Positions 27,352 to 48,582 of a stretch of DNA of 64,000 bases are shown here, in pieces. Below the pieces are notes generated by a model. The model was given only the letters and a program-made list of their open reading frames with translations. It was not told the origin of the DNA and did not search any database. Made by a program: the position numbers and the translations under genes. Source of the DNA: Sphingobium cyanobacteriorum (lineage in GTDB: Bacteria > Pseudomonadota > Alphaproteobacteria > Sphingomonadales > Sphingomonadaceae); NCBI RefSeq assembly GCF_030580935.1, contig NZ_JAUQOM010000002.1, positions 310,001-374,000 of the forward strand, read 5' to 3'. Numbering within the stretch: the stretch's first letter is position 1; each line of letters opens with the position of its first letter.

Positions 27352-27389
27352 AAAGCTAGCGTGCTCCTGCGAAGGCGGAGCATGTCATT

Positions 27390-27459
27390 CGTCATTGCGA
27401 GCGCAGCGAAGCAATCCAATGGCGTGACCGTGGATTGCTTCGCTGCGCTCGCAATGACG
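27390..27459. repeat. Perfect 29-bp palindrome (family C)
   Basis: Positions 27390-27418 are the exact reverse complement of 27431-27459, with a 12-base loop between. The arms begin CGTCATTGCGAGCG and end GAAGCAATCCA. To my knowledge this word pattern belongs to a palindromic repeat found between genes in many bacteria. It lies between the gcv-linked methyltransferase and the next + strand gene, and 16 bases before that gene's ATG. It could end transcription or fold in the leader. Confidence 0.9.
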
Positions 27460-27474
27460 AGAGTATGAATTGAT

Positions 27475-28359
27475 ATGTCATCCATGCCCCAACTCCTCCC
27501 CCTCGTCACCGCCGAACTCGCCGCCCCGGCCGACCCCCGCGCCGCGGCGATGGCGGGCGCGCTGGCGGCGCAATATCCTGATGCCGCCCGCGCTGTGCTG
27601 TTCTACGGCTCCTGCCTGCGGGAGGCCAATCTCGACGGGCTGATGCTCGATTTCTACCTGATCGTGTCCGACTATCCCGCCGCCTATGGCAAGGGCTGGC
27701 TGGCGCGGGCCAACCGCCTGATCCCCCCCAACGTCTTTCCGTTCGAACATCAGGGGCTGATCGCCAAATATGCGGTCCTGTCCGAAGCCGATTTCGCGCG
27801 TCTGAACAGCCCGGCGGCCGACAATGTCTCGCTCTGGGCGCGCTTCGCCCAGCCATCGCGGCTGCTCTGGGCGTCCGACGACCTGGCCCGCCAGCGCACC
27901 ATCGCCGCCGTGGCGCAGGCCGCGCCGACGCTCCTGTCGCTTGCCAGGCCCATGGTAAAAGAAGGGGGAGACGTGCTCTCCCTGTGGACCTCCGGCTTTG
28001 CGCTGACCTATGATGCGGAGTTGCGTGCGGAAAAGACGGGACGTTCGCGCTCGATCGTCGATGCCGATCCCGACCGCTATCGCCGCTTTGGTGATGCCGC
28101 GCTCGCCGATGGCCTGCCCCCTGCGCCGCAGGACGCGCCTGCGCTCTGGCGCGCGCTTCAGCGCCGCGGCAAGCGCCTGTCGGTGATCCGCCTGGCCAAG
28201 GCCAGCTTCACCTATGCCGGCGGCATCGATTATCTGGCGTGGAAGATCAACCGCCACGCGGGCACGCAGATCAGCATCAAGCCCTGGCAGCGGCGCTGGC
28301 CGCTGCTGGGCGCGCTCACTCTGCTGCCGCGGCTGTTCCGGGGCGGGGCGATCCGTTAA
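27475..28359 (+). CDS. Tam41/Mmp37-like nucleotidyltransferase (candidate CDP-DAG synthase)
   Basis: 294-residue protein of uncertain function. Several segments line up by eye with mitochondrial Tam41 (PF09139), which makes CDP-diacylglycerol from phosphatidate and CTP. They are YGSCLRE at 44-50 for the YGSG loop, MLDFYLIV at 57-64 for the IDF strand, IAKYAVLS at 96-103 for the KYGV strand, WARFAQPSRLL at 121-131 for AGRLQKP, LTYDAELR at 177-184 for LSYAGDIR, and a C-terminal IRLAKASFTYAGGIDYLAWK. There is no signal or membrane segment. The GSG loop reads GSC. The gene ends inside the kinase gene on the other strand (44-base overlap). Confidence 0.6.
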   Translation: MSSMPQLLPLVTAELAAPADPRAAAMAGALAAQYPDAARAVLFYGSCLREANLDGLMLDFYLIVSDYPAAYGKGWLARANRLIPPNVFPFEHQGLIAKYAVLSEADFARLNSPAADNVSLWARFAQPSRLLWASDDLARQRTIAAVAQAAPTLLSLARPMVKEGGDVLSLWTSGFALTYDAELRAEKTGRSRSIVDADPDRYRRFGDAALADGLPPAPQDAPALWRALQRRGKRLSVIRLAKASFTYAGGIDYLAWKINRHAGTQISIKPWQRRWPLLGALTLLPRLFRGGAIR

Positions 28360-30322
28360 GGGCCTCGTCGCCAAGGACATTCGCCAGTGCCTGCCCCAGC
28401 GCCGCCAGCGTATAGGGCTTGCGCAGCACCGCATGGCCTTCGAAATCGGCGCTGTCATTGCCGTCGCCGGCATAGCCGGTGACGAACAGCACGGGCAGGT
28501 GGCGGAAGCGCGCGGGCAATGCCTTCACCATTTCCGGCCCGGTCATGTCGGGCATCAACACGTCGCTGATGATCAGGCTGATGTCGCCATTATGCTCCAG
28601 CAACCTGGCCGCTTTGGCCGGATGATCGCAGGCGATCGGCAGATGGCCCAGTTCACTGAGCGCCGCCATCGTCTGGTTCAGCACGCGCGGGTCATCCTCC
28701 ACCACCAGGATGCGGGTGGGCGGCTGTTCCACCGGCATATGGGCAAATGCGGCCGCCTCGGCCCCTGCCTCATCCGCATCCTGCACGGCGCGGGGCAGGT
28801 AGAGGTGAACACTGCTGCCCTTGCCCGGCTCGGATTCGATGCGGATCTCGCCTGCGCTCTGCCGCACGAAGCCGAAAATCTGGCTGAGGCCCAGGCCCGT
28901 GCCCTTGCCGACCGGCTTAGTGGTGAAGAAAGGCTCAAATACCCGCGCCAGCACGTCGGGCGTCATGCCGCATCCATCGTCGGTCACGCGCAGCGTCACA
29001 TAGTCGCCCGCCGCACATTCGCCGATCTCGCCGGCGCCCAGTGTCACCTGTCCCGTCGCCAGGGTCAGCCGCCCACGGCCATCCATCGCGTCGCGGGCGT
29101 TGACGCACAGATTCAGGATCGCATTTTCCATCTGATGCTGGTCGACGAAGATGTGCCAGCCCTGCGCTTCCTGCGTAACGCGCACGATGATCTGGTCGCC
29201 GATGGTGCGGTCGATCAGGTCGGTCATGCCACGGAGCAGGCCATCGGGATCGACGGCGCTGGGCAATAGCGGTTCTGACCGGGCAAAGGCCAGCAGCCGG
29301 CGGGTGAGGGCGGCGGCACGATTGGCCCCGTCCATCGCATTGTCCAGATGGCGCGCGGCTTCTTCGGGCTGCAACCGAAACTTGCGCCTGGCCAGTTCCA
29401 GCCCGCCGACCACGACCGCCAGCATATTGTTGAAATCATGGGCGATGCCGCCGGTCAACTGGCCCACCGCATCCATTTTCTGCATCTGGCGCAGATTGTC
29501 CTCGGCGGCTGCGCGCTCGGCCGATTCGCGCTTCAGCCGCTCATAGGCGTCGGACAGTTCGGCGGTGCGTTCGCGCACCGCCGCTTCCATCCGGTCGGCG
29601 CGCTCGGTTTCCGCCTCCGCCTGTCGCCGGGCGTTGCGCCGCTCGCGATAGGCGATGTTGGCGAACCAGGCGACGAACAGGATGCATACCAGCATCGCCA
29701 GGCCGACCAGTTGCGATGTCTTGCCAACGGTTTCGCTGCGATCCCCTGCCAGCGTCACCGCCAGGCTGCGTTCGCGCAGCCGCTGGTCCTCCGCCTTGAT
29801 GACCAGGTCGAGCAGGGCGGTGATGCGGCGCAGATCCTGGCTCTTGCCTGCCTGATGAAAGCGCGCCAGCGCCGCCATCTTCTGGTCATAGGTGGTGCGC
29901 AGGCCGATTTCGTTCAGCGTCCGGCCGCGCTGGGTGAAGGCATATTGCAGCGCCGCGACATTGCCACGCTGCCATCCCGACCCGCGCGTCGCATAGGCCA
30001 GCGCCTTCAACTGGCTCGCCGCACTGCGCCATTGATCCTGGTAAAGCCGGCCGGTGTCGGGGTCCAGGCTGATGACATAGCGGGCCAGCGTCACTTCGGC
30101 GCGAGCGCTTTTGGCCTCGAATGCGCGGGCCAGCGCGATCACCTCGAAACTGCGCTGCTGTTCGGCCAATGCCCTTTGATGATCGCGCGATGCATTGCTG
30201 GCGGTAAAGACCAGCGCGCCCAGCGCACCGATCAGCAGCGCGGCCAGCAGCAAGGGCAGCACGCGCCGCAATGCTGCGCGCGCGCCTGCCAACTGCTGAT
30301 CCTGATGCTCGCCATCGGCCAT
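28316..30322 (-). CDS. Membrane hybrid sensor histidine kinase
   Basis: 668-residue hybrid kinase. Membrane segments at about 21-42 and 204-222 enclose a helical periplasmic sensor of about 160 residues, CHASE3-like in size and helicity. A coiled coil covers 225-285. The dimerisation/phosphoacceptor motif GGIAHDFNN places His295. The ATPase domain has NLCVNARDAM, DDGCGMT and GTGLGLSQIFG. A receiver domain fills 537-655 with phospho-acceptor Asp587 in ISDVLMP and Lys in RKPY. There is no output domain or partner regulator gene beside it. The signal is unknown. Its 3' end overlaps the convergent Tam41-like gene. Confidence 0.9.
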   Translation of the reverse strand: MADGEHQDQQLAGARAALRRVLPLLLAALLIGALGALVFTASNASRDHQRALAEQQRSFEVIALARAFEAKSARAEVTLARYVISLDPDTGRLYQDQWRSAASQLKALAYATRGSGWQRGNVAALQYAFTQRGRTLNEIGLRTTYDQKMAALARFHQAGKSQDLRRITALLDLVIKAEDQRLRERSLAVTLAGDRSETVGKTSQLVGLAMLVCILFVAWFANIAYRERRNARRQAEAETERADRMEAAVRERTAELSDAYERLKRESAERAAAEDNLRQMQKMDAVGQLTGGIAHDFNNMLAVVVGGLELARRKFRLQPEEAARHLDNAMDGANRAAALTRRLLAFARSEPLLPSAVDPDGLLRGMTDLIDRTIGDQIIVRVTQEAQGWHIFVDQHQMENAILNLCVNARDAMDGRGRLTLATGQVTLGAGEIGECAAGDYVTLRVTDDGCGMTPDVLARVFEPFFTTKPVGKGTGLGLSQIFGFVRQSAGEIRIESEPGKGSSVHLYLPRAVQDADEAGAEAAAFAHMPVEQPPTRILVVEDDPRVLNQTMAALSELGHLPIACDHPAKAARLLEHNGDISLIISDVLMPDMTGPEMVKALPARFRHLPVLFVTGYAGDGNDSADFEGHAVLRKPYTLAALGQALANVLGDEALNGSPRPGTAAAAE

Positions 30323-30437: not shown

Positions 30438-31670
30438 TCAGCCAATCGCGCCGGTCAGCTTCCCCGCCGCCTCGAACATGCCGATGATCTGTCCGACCTG
30501 TTCGTCGCTATGTTCGGCACAGAGCGAGCAGCGCAGCAGGAAGGTGCCGGCCGGGGTCGCGGGTGGCCGCGCCATGTTGACGTACAGGCCCAGTTCCAGC
30601 AGCGCCTGCCACATCGCCACAGCCTGGGCCTGATCGGTCAGGATGACGGCGATGATCGCCGACTGCGGCGTTTCCGTGCCCAGCGTGAAGCCCAGATCGG
30701 TAAGCCCCTTGTGCAGCCGCTGGCTGTTCTTCCACAGATGGGCGCGCTTGTCGCCCGCGTGCATCAGCTTGCGGATGCTGGTCGCGGCGGTGGCGACGAC
30801 GCTGGGCGGCAATGACGCGGTGAACACATAGGGGCGGCAGACGAGGCGCAGAATCTCGAACTTGGGATGGTTCGATACGCAGAAGCCGCCAACCGTGCCA
30901 ACCGATTTGGAGAAGGTGCCGACCACGAAGTCGACATCCGCCTCTACGCCCTGTTCCTCGTAAACGCCCCGGCCATGTTCGCCGAAAAAGCCCATGCCAT
31001 GGGCTTCGTCGACCAGGATCATGCAATTGGGATGCTTGCGGATCGCCGCGACCATGGCGGGCAGGGGGGCAACGTCGCCCAGCATCGAATAGACGCCTTC
31101 CAGCACCACCAGTTTCAGCGCATCGGCGGGCAGGCGGCCCAGGCGCTTGTCCAGATCCTCGACGCTGTTGTGGCGGAAACGCACGATGTCGGCATCGCCC
31201 AGGAAACAGCCGTCATAGATGGACGCATGGCTGTCCGCGTCCAGCACGACATAGTCGCCCTTGCCCGCCAGCGTCGAAATCACGCCCAGATTGGCCTGAT
31301 AGCCGGTCGAAAAGACCATCGCGCCGGACGTGCCGTAAAATTCCCGAAGCGCGTCCTCGACTTCCCTGTGGCCCTGATAGGTGCCGTTCAGGACGCGGCT
31401 GCCGGTGGTGCCGGCGCCAAATTCGTCCAGCGCCTTCTTGCCCGCCGCGACCACGTCCGGGTCGAACGTCATGCCCATATAATTATAGGTGCCCAGCAGG
31501 ATCGTGTCCTTGCCCTTGATCACGGCCTGGGTCGGGGACTTTACCTCATCCATCACGATCGCGAACGGATCGCGCACGCCCGTCGCCAGCAGCGCCTCGC
31601 GCTCGGCGATCAGGGGATCGAATTTGGAAAAGAGATCGCGTGTTTCAGTGGCGATGGCGGCGTCGGTCAT
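30438..31670 (-). CDS. spt: Serine palmitoyltransferase
   Basis: 410-residue soluble PLP enzyme of the alpha-oxoamine synthase family that condenses L-serine with a fatty acyl thioester to 3-ketosphinganine, the committed step of sphingolipid synthesis. Lys255 in GTFSKSVGT forms the PLP aldimine, His148 in DADSHAS stacks on the ring, and Asp221/His224 in DEAHGM contact the cofactor. The sequence closely follows the Sphingomonas paucimobilis enzyme throughout, including NYMGMTFDPDV and PPATPAGTFLLRCS, which separates it from KBL and ALAS. A dedicated carrier protein gene lies just upstream. Confidence 0.95.
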   Translation of the reverse strand: MTDAAIATETRDLFSKFDPLIAEREALLATGVRDPFAIVMDEVKSPTQAVIKGKDTILLGTYNYMGMTFDPDVVAAGKKALDEFGAGTTGSRVLNGTYQGHREVEDALREFYGTSGAMVFSTGYQANLGVISTLAGKGDYVVLDADSHASIYDGCFLGDADIVRFRHNSVEDLDKRLGRLPADALKLVVLEGVYSMLGDVAPLPAMVAAIRKHPNCMILVDEAHGMGFFGEHGRGVYEEQGVEADVDFVVGTFSKSVGTVGGFCVSNHPKFEILRLVCRPYVFTASLPPSVVATAATSIRKLMHAGDKRAHLWKNSQRLHKGLTDLGFTLGTETPQSAIIAVILTDQAQAVAMWQALLELGLYVNMARPPATPAGTFLLRCSLCAEHSDEQVGQIIGMFEAAGKLTGAIG

Positions 31671-31774: not shown

Positions 31775-32017
31775 TCAGCCCTTCAGCTTGGCGACCGCGT
31801 CCACCAACTGGCCGACGGTTTCGATCTCGGCCTGCATGTTCATGGTGATGATGATGTCGAATTCATCCTCGATCGCCGCGACGAAATCCATCACCGTCAG
31901 GCTGTCCCACTCCAGGTCGCCGGCGAAGCTGGTGCCTTCGGTCAGGTCGATGCCCTTCTTGTTGAAGGGGGCGATCTGCGCCGCAACGCTGTCGAAAATC
32001 TCGGTGCGATCCGTCAT
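31775..32017 (-). CDS. Acyl carrier protein linked to sphingolipid synthesis
   Basis: 80-residue acyl carrier protein. The phosphopantetheine serine is Ser39 in LEWDSLTVMDF, and the rest is the four-helix ACP pattern with an acidic helix II-III. In Caulobacter the equivalent carrier (AcpR) lies next to serine palmitoyltransferase and is needed for ceramide synthesis, so it probably delivers the acyl chain to Spt here. ATG 32017 gives the normal ACP length; an upstream in-frame start at 32077 is unlikely. It precedes spt on the same strand. Confidence 0.9.
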   Translation of the reverse strand: MTDRTEIFDSVAAQIAPFNKKGIDLTEGTSFAGDLEWDSLTVMDFVAAIEDEFDIIITMNMQAEIETVGQLVDAVAKLKG

Positions 32018-32136
32018 TATCGTCAAATTCTTTCCGTCAAAGCGCGGCATTTGCCGCCTCAGCCCGCTCTTTGGCAAGCGAATAAGGCGTCAATCGGGCA
32101 GCATCGCGCCCGATCTGAGAGGCTGTGCCAGCGCGT

Positions 32137-47652: not shown

Positions 47653-48582
47653 CTAAAGCCACCCTTTCTCCCGATAAGCCGTCGCCGTTTCGCGCAGCCC
47701 CTCCTCGGTTCCCACCTGCGGCATCCACAGCCGTTTGGGCGGCTGCTTGCGCTTGGCCACCACCCAGTCGGGATGGCAGAAATAATCGACCCGGTCGGGG
47801 GTGAGCTTTGCCTGCTTGCCGCGCACCAGCCGGTCTGCCCGCGCGGCCACGTTGAGCAGCCATTGCGGCGTCGCGAGCGTCCTGACCGACCGGCCCACCG
47901 CCCGCCCGATCGCCGCGCCGAAATCCTTGTGCTCCCACCCGCCCGGCGTGCCGTCATCCACCTCATAGCTGCGGGTCAGGCTGTTTTCCTTTTCCTGCGC
48001 CAACGCCAGCAGCAGCCGGGCGAGGTCGCCGACATGGATCACCGACAGCCGCCCGCCCGGCGGCAGCATCATGATGCCGCGCCTGGCCATGCGGAACAGT
48101 TCCAGCATTTCCCTGTCGCCCGGCCCGTAAATCGCCGGCGGTCGCACGATGGTCCAGTCCAGTCCGCTGGCCTTGACATATTTTTCGGCCAGTTCCTTGG
48201 ACCAGCCATAGTCGGACAGGCCAGGTTCGCGCGCCGCCAGCGACGACACATGCACCAGCCGCCTGATACCCCGCCGTCGCATCGCGTCGATCACGGCCAT
48301 GGTGCCGCGCGCATTGCCCACTTCGAACCCATCGCGGTCGGGCGCGTTCACCACCCCGGCGATATGGATCACCGCATCGGCGTCCCGCACCAGCGTATCG
48401 AGCGCGGCGGCATCCTCCAGCGATCCCGGCACCCATTTCAGCTTCGCGCGCGGCGGCTGCGCCCGGCGGGTCAGCGCATTGACGCGCAACTCCCCGTTCA
48501 GGCCGTCAGCCAGCGCCTGCTCCAACGCTTCGGCGCCGACGAAGCCCGTCGCGCCGGTCATCGCAATACGGAACGGGGTCAT
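47653..48582 (-). CDS. Extended SDR / NAD-dependent epimerase-dehydratase family protein
   Basis: 309-residue extended short-chain dehydrogenase. The nucleotide loop TGATGFVG is at residues 9-16, with VHVSS and the YxxxK motif in DYGWSKELAEK. Residues 170-309 are the variable substrate region. Family members include complex I assembly proteins (NDUFA9-like), sterol or ceramide reductases and sugar epimerases; nothing here decides between them. The gene starts two bases after proB ends on the same strand, so they are probably co-transcribed. Confidence 0.82.
   Translation of the reverse strand: MTPFRIAMTGATGFVGAEALEQALADGLNGELRVNALTRRAQPPRAKLKWVPGSLEDAAALDTLVRDADAVIHIAGVVNAPDRDGFEVGNARGTMAVIDAMRRRGIRRLVHVSSLAAREPGLSDYGWSKELAEKYVKASGLDWTIVRPPAIYGPGDREMLELFRMARRGIMMLPPGGRLSVIHVGDLARLLLALAQEKENSLTRSYEVDDGTPGGWEHKDFGAAIGRAVGRSVRTLATPQWLLNVAARADRLVRGKQAKLTPDRVDYFCHPDWVVAKRKQPPKRLWMPQVGTEEGLRETATAYREKGWL

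Follow-up and report, generated by a model that had tools for sequence, protein, structure and literature searches.

What does the protein encoded at 27475-28359 of this Sphingobium DNA do, and is it tied to the serine palmitoyltransferase (SPT) gene that lies close by? A preliminary description of the window (the whole stretch of 64,000 nucleotides analysed here) had proposed a bacterial Tam41-like nucleotidyltransferase, perhaps a CTP-dependent enzyme activating phospholipid or sphingolipid head groups. The genes on which the question turns are as follows.

27475..28359, + strand: Tam41-like nucleotidyltransferase gene, probable CpgC/CC_1161 orthologue (294-aa ORF; conservation, models and fold searches)
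28316..30322, - strand: hybrid histidine kinase, 668 aa, CckA-like, between the Tam41-like gene and SPT (HisKA, HATPase_c and Response_reg)
30438..31670, - strand: SPT, first enzyme of sphingolipid synthesis (NF047603, 788.5 bits, cut-off 670; NF047599, 589.5 bits, cut-off 500)
31775..32077, - strand: acyl carrier protein (ACP), AcpR-like, adjoining SPT (ACP profiles, none above cut-off; recurs beside SPT)

The Tam41-like ORF is a genuine conserved gene. Homologues at E <= 0.001 were detected in 57 of the 61 genomes searched, a count that includes the window's own genome and one weak match (G028; 75 residues, E 7e-4). When nine of the 30 same-genus loci were compared with it, codon position 3 took most of the mismatches in all nine (with counts such as 21/16/77 and 72/46/150 over the three positions), a bias that led us to reject a chance ORF. 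Opposite the gene runs a long antisense ORF (27478-28473, - strand). The longest open antisense stretch in the nine homologues was 152-167 aa in five, 254 aa in one and the whole length in three; because the antisense frame is fully open in these three, an antisense gene was rejected less firmly.

Tam41 (TAMM41) is the mitochondrial CDP-diacylglycerol (CDP-DAG) synthase, represented by Pfam family PF09139 and by PDB structures 6ig2 and 6ig4. The likeness to Tam41 claimed in the preliminary description held at the level of predicted fold, in two models and with two aligners. AlphaFold2 model 1 was derived from a 22-sequence alignment (pLDDT 88.6) and model 2 from the Sphingobium protein (P0001) together with 41 sequences taken from a different collection (pLDDT 89.3); they agree in secondary structure, with small differences chiefly around residues 180-193. 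In VIA, the top match of both was 7ecd, a Firmicutes Tam41 with CTP-Mg, with Z 18.1 for model 1 (219 residues, 3.1 Å) and 17.8 for model 2 (217 residues, 3.1 Å). Mitochondrial Tam41 (6ig4) followed with Z 15.1 and 14.3, whereas the best non-Tam41 folds, aminoglycoside nucleotidyltransferases, reached 7.4 (119 residues) and 7.5 (113 residues). In Foldseek, too, Tam41 chains led the list, filling the first five rows with model 1 and the first four with model 2, at moderate TM-scores of 0.40-0.53 by query length; 7ecd was absent among the top 50 rows for model 2. The structural alignment to 7ecd ends at residue 247 in both models, and a basic helical C-terminus is present. Taken by their top matches, both models show the Tam41 variant of the nucleotidyltransferase fold. 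An antibiotic nucleotidyltransferase was considered and rejected, given structural Z values of about 7 and NCBIfam matches of this kind at E 0.051 or weaker.

The first check named in the preliminary description, a profile match to PF09139, failed. The Pfam scan of the Sphingobium protein gave no PF09139 match at E <= 10, NCBIfam and PADLOC scans gave no match, and sequence searches of the PDB (phmmer and profiles) did not retrieve Tam41; the best PDB profile match, the small nucleotidyltransferase-domain protein 9xbd, was not significant (E 0.012) and fits the fold. Among 54 family members, two matched PF09139 at E <= 1 (a second matcher having been sought in 20 of the 54, in two batches), and one of them, L175, passed the Pfam cut-off with 28.8 vs 24 bits. 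Residues 87-222 of L175 correspond to profile positions 81-213 and align to residues 85-213 of P0001, collinear with the core. L184/L051 scored 23.1 bits, just below the cut-off of 24, and L197, from elsewhere in the phylum and outside the 54, scored 21.8 bits, also below. A six-frame genome search with PF09139 matched one of 289 class genomes and one of 398 phylum genomes, both below cut-off; this search is no measure of absence, since no control genome matched, and G183, the source of L175, was missed. The Sphingobium protein itself fails the profile and is therefore best placed in a Tam41-like sister group, not in PF09139 by Pfam's rule.

Conservation across the 54 family members concentrates in a few segments.

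27604..27621, + strand: YGSCLR loop, residues 44-49, start of the nucleotidyltransferase core (Y44 and G45 in 54/54, S46 in 52/54)
27649..27651, + strand: D59 (acid in 54/54)
27766..27768, + strand: K98 of the KY strand (54/54)
27835..27855, + strand: W-A-R-F-x-Q-P segment, residues 121-127 (W121, R123, Q126 and P127 in 54/54)
28018..28032, + strand: E-L-R-x-E segment, residues 182-186 (E182, R184 and E186 in 54/54)
28189..28263, + strand: basic/aromatic C-terminal helices, residues 239-263 (conservation; model helices 221-246 and 250-262)

The Tam41 order of motifs, previously read by eye, is thus retained in the family (YGS loop, KY strand and the other motifs), and so are the acid and the serine (D59, S46) expected of orthologues. 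P85, L240 and T246 were likewise invariant. It had also been suggested that GSC in place of GSG in the loop might matter for activity; C47, where Tam41 presumably has a glycine, is the family norm (43/54 members, G in 3/54), and for this reason the loop carries no special message. L48 and R49 were found in 48/54 and 47/54 members, respectively.

Within residues 38-71, 84-103 and 128-133, D59 is the only position acidic in all members. At the assumed sites of the other two usual catalytic acids, namely position 61 and strand 95-103, D or E occurred in 0/54, and position 65 had D/E in 42/54 members and S in the Sphingobium protein. Tam41 has one only of the three usual nucleotidyltransferase acids, according to the available part of PMC11646218, and this single-acid trait recurs here, with D59 invariant and no acid at the two presumed other sites. 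In the C-terminal part, Y253 and K257 were present in 54/54, R239 and H261 in 53/54, K242 and T246 in at least 53/54 and R260 in 50/54 members; these basic and aromatic helices could possibly contact the membrane or a lipid phosphate.

We then turn to gene context. SPT had been placed about 2 kb from the gene, and the gap is indeed 2.08 kb. It is occupied by the histidine kinase ORF, which overlaps the 3' end of the Tam41-like gene by 44 bp and which we regard as a neighbour of both genes rather than a demonstrated member of the pathway. The median gap in the 75 SPT-holding loci of the genome_contigs collection (best 80 of 489 relatives) is likewise 2.08 kb, suggesting the same histidine kinase neighbour there. 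Two further features of the window were observed. A perfect 30-nt inverted repeat with a 12-nt spacer lies at 27389-27460, between a DUF938 methyltransferase gene and the Tam41-like gene; no further copy of its arm with <= 3 mismatches was detected within the window, and the repeat could represent either a hairpin resembling a terminator or a dispersed palindromic element. A short-chain dehydrogenase (47653-48582, - strand; NAD_binding_10/Epimerase) resembles the reductase of the Roseomonas cluster described below and could be a ceramide reductase or an unrelated relative.

At the level of the family, the gene is linked to a lipid kinase as well as to SPT. A lipid kinase gene lies directly upstream on the same strand in all 20 order-level loci, in 30 of the 34 class-level loci (from 33 genomes, one giving two loci, with the window's genome excluded) and in 49 of the 80 genome_contigs loci (best 80 of 489 relatives). 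Of these loci, 18/20, 24/34 and 75/80, respectively, had SPT within the DNA fetched; several missing neighbours reflect short contigs, and some genome_contigs loci come from the same strains as loci of the 61-genome search. The 31 genome_contigs loci without an adjacent kinase include 26 named Sphingobium and one (L065) whose upstream DNA is too short to judge; none of these best 80 relatives was titled Caulobacter. In the window's own genome, a kinase and two other candidate pathway genes occur elsewhere on the same contig.

C12:238569-239537, - strand: lipid kinase, CpgB-like (DAGK_cat, 55.3 bits), about 98 kb before the Tam41-like gene
C12:262592-263392: CpgD-like cytidylyltransferase (47% identity to a Pseudomonas plasmid protein)
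C12:280979-282097: CpgA-like CDP-alcohol transferase (49% over 257 residues to a Roseomonas protein)

This kinase adjoins a DUF2141 match, two LptF/LptG-family genes and a GNAT-like gene. It keeps the neighbours found beside the Tam41-like gene in other Sphingomonadales, so the junction between the two genes seems to have been broken in this lineage. The genome also contains five CDP-alcohol transferase matches in all and, on contig 1, a CdsA (193 bits).

A whole series, ACP-SPT / Tam41-like gene-kinase-CDP-alcohol transferase / phosphoesterase-(HIT)-LptF-LptG, was present in five of the 34 class-level loci (L162, L163, L166, L178 and L183). It starts with acyl-AMP ligase, reductase, ACP and SPT, and continues on the opposite strand with the Tam41-like gene, kinase and CDP-alcohol transferase; in the remaining class-level loci it is partial or rearranged. 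The Sphingomonadales arrangement differs (Tam41-like gene-kinase-DUF2141-LptF-LptG), and a CDP-alcohol transferase like that of Caulobacter CC_1159 was not found in the fetched flanks of the 20 order-level loci. On a Roseomonas plasmid the order is nearly preserved, a glycosyltransferase gene separating the Tam41-like gene from SPT, and a Pseudomonas plasmid carries this gene set in a different arrangement; on both, the Tam41-like gene is annotated 'hypothetical protein'. In addition, six clusters (L162, L163, L166, L173, L194 and L200) contained, past LptG, another CDP-alcohol transferase match, which is a candidate for a CDP-ceramide-consuming enzyme.

Distribution of the gene follows that of SPT. 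Among 289 Alphaproteobacteria, 34 genomes had both, none the gene alone, five SPT alone and 250 neither, with SPT counted above the profile cut-off (39/289) and G306, a partial match just under it, scored as lacking SPT. The Fisher p of 2.7e-39 overstates the association because related genomes are not independent. This co-occurrence and the gene order bear out the sphingolipid link made in the preliminary description. In a draw from the phylum, the gene was detected in 27 of 398 genomes, two of them outside the class. The five genomes with SPT above cut-off and no CpgC-like match (G072, G126, G139, G205 and G340, two of which are in the window's family) may be sphingolipid makers lacking phosphoglycerate head groups.

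The same genes have been studied in Caulobacter. In the available part of PMC11324152, the order is given as acpR, spt (CC_1162), CC_1161, CC_1160 (ceramide kinase) and CC_1159 onward, and our five whole class-level series correspond to CC_1163-CC_1155 as laid out there. That source reports that loss of CC_1161 abolishes ceramide phosphoglycerate (CPG) and CPG2 with a moderate rise in ceramide, that complementation brings both back, that CC_1159 is dispensable for CPG, that CC_1161 has an InterPro CDP-DAG-synthase domain, and that most cluster genes have orthologues in Sphingomonas wittichii and Zymomonas; the available part of its transmembrane-helix figure legend does not name CC_1161. Gene order matches Caulobacter CC_1163-CC_1159, and the Sphingobium gene is therefore probably the orthologue of CpgC (CC_1161/CCNA_01219), a call that draws on gene order and gene content. 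As far as the available parts of these sources go, the CpgC step still proceeds by an "unidentified mechanism" in a May 2026 preprint (PMC13228409), and the 2025 CpgD paper (PMC12275187) likewise leaves it unidentified. Since CC_1161 is reported to be needed for CPG, the gene is thus of a known but biochemically unsolved kind.

We propose, with a probability of about 0.6, that the Tam41-like protein catalyzes the CpgC step as CTP + ceramide-1-phosphate -> CDP-ceramide + PPi. A CpgB-type lipid kinase would first make ceramide-1-phosphate. The Tam41-like enzyme, sitting at the inner membrane through its basic C-terminal helices, would then allow ceramide-1-phosphate to attack the alpha-phosphate of CTP, with release of pyrophosphate and formation of CDP-ceramide. 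Ceramide phosphoglycerate would arise when a further enzyme, of the CDP-alcohol phosphotransferase type or otherwise, replaced CMP with (phospho)glycerate, and CpgD, through CDP-glycerate, and CpgA would lengthen the head group. Extended to the whole family, the proposal is that these proteins are CTP:ceramide-1-phosphate cytidylyltransferases, that phosphosphingolipids are made via CDP-ceramide and that a Tam41 relative has been re-used; we lean towards this as well, a little less strongly. The general hypothesis is already in print, an NDP-activated ceramide having been suggested in 2024 (available part of PMC11324152); the structural and comparative support given here narrows it down to this reaction. 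In open-licence literature, we found neither CDP-ceramide nor CDP-ceramide synthase, which does not show that they are missing from print, nor Mmp37 in connection with ceramide and bacteria; titles and abstract openings since 2019 yielded no ceramide-1-phosphate cytidylyltransferase or Tam41-type assignment.

The rival that survives best, and which we consider unlikely, is that the protein, though a cytidylyltransferase with this fold, has a different phosphate as its substrate, such as (phospho)glycerate or a head-group precursor, or uses another NTP, so that no CDP-ceramide would be made. Substrate choice is not dictated by the fold, and the clusters contain more nucleotidyltransferases and CDP-alcohol transferases. 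Also on its side is L200, from plasmid pDCB2 of Diaphorobacter sp. JS3051 (typed conjugative IncP), where a CpgC-like gene lies in a lipid cluster with two CDP-alcohol transferases, a non-adjacent DAGK-family kinase, LptF/LptG and an acyltransferase, and where SPT was neither annotated nor found by tblastn within the 20.75 kb fetched. The substrate may therefore not always be ceramide phosphate, and L200 might be a transferable set of envelope-lipid genes based on a different lipid. However, Tam41, the nearest fold, works on a lipid phosphate, and the gene is tightly paired with a lipid kinase whose product would be one. Moreover, CDP-glycerate is already made by CpgD, the loss of which leaves CPG intact (available part of PMC12275187).

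A second alternative, less probable again, dispenses with nucleotide transfer: the protein would join glycerate directly to ceramide-1-phosphate, or represent a degenerate, regulatory nucleotidyltransferase fold. Direct attachment of glycerate by CC_1161 was proposed earlier and is called energetically not very favourable in the available part of PMC11324152. The invariance of one core acid only might be taken as a sign of degeneration, but Tam41 is active with one of the three acids (available part of PMC11646218), and D59, K98, R123, Q126, E182, R184 and E186 are all kept in 54/54 members.

The weakest reading, a true CDP-DAG synthase using phosphatidate as a second route beside CdsA, agrees with the nearest solved structures being mitochondrial and Firmicutes CDP-DAG synthases, but it seems improbable given the genome's CdsA, the constant company of SPT (34/34 among 289 genomes), the pairing with the lipid kinase of a sphingolipid cluster and the loss of CPG and CPG2 without CC_1161 in Caulobacter (available part of PMC11324152). 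The presence of CdsA makes a housekeeping CDP-DAG role unlikely, and with the gene confined to SPT genomes (34/34 of the 289 drawn) such a role was rejected; the phospholipid option of the preliminary description is weakened on the same ground.

We thus favor CDP-ceramide formation. The Tam41-like fold and the single-acid core single out one specific candidate reaction, that of CTP with ceramide-1-phosphate. If this is true, it would supply the missing activation step of anionic bacterial sphingolipids, and CDP-ceramide would join the lipid intermediates, on a sphingolipid route that parallels the one through CDP-diacylglycerol. Viability of Caulobacter without lipopolysaccharide depends in part on anionic sphingolipids (available part of PMC12275187).

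Compared with known systems, the protein would share with CdsA (PF01148) the transfer of CMP to a lipid phosphate, as proposed for the Tam41-like protein, whereas CdsA is an integral membrane protein that is not homologous to Tam41 (available part of PMC7018664). CpgD, the CTP:phosphoglycerate cytidylyltransferase, works in the same pathway but belongs to a different family: for the genome's own CpgD-like protein, NTP_transferase and NTP_transf_3 were among the matches listed and Tam41 was not. Tam41 is similar in fold over approximately 194-219 aligned residues, in the single invariant core acid, in the order of motifs (as given in the preliminary description) and perhaps in the basic C-terminal helical part; it differs in that identity is about 17%, the Sphingobium protein has no Pfam match, and the gene context here is a lipid kinase and SPT. 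As for CpgC, the Sphingobium kinase lies about 98 kb off and a histidine kinase ORF separates the gene from SPT, but at the family level the gene holds the same slot in the order ACP-SPT-nucleotidyltransferase-kinase-CDP-alcohol transferase.
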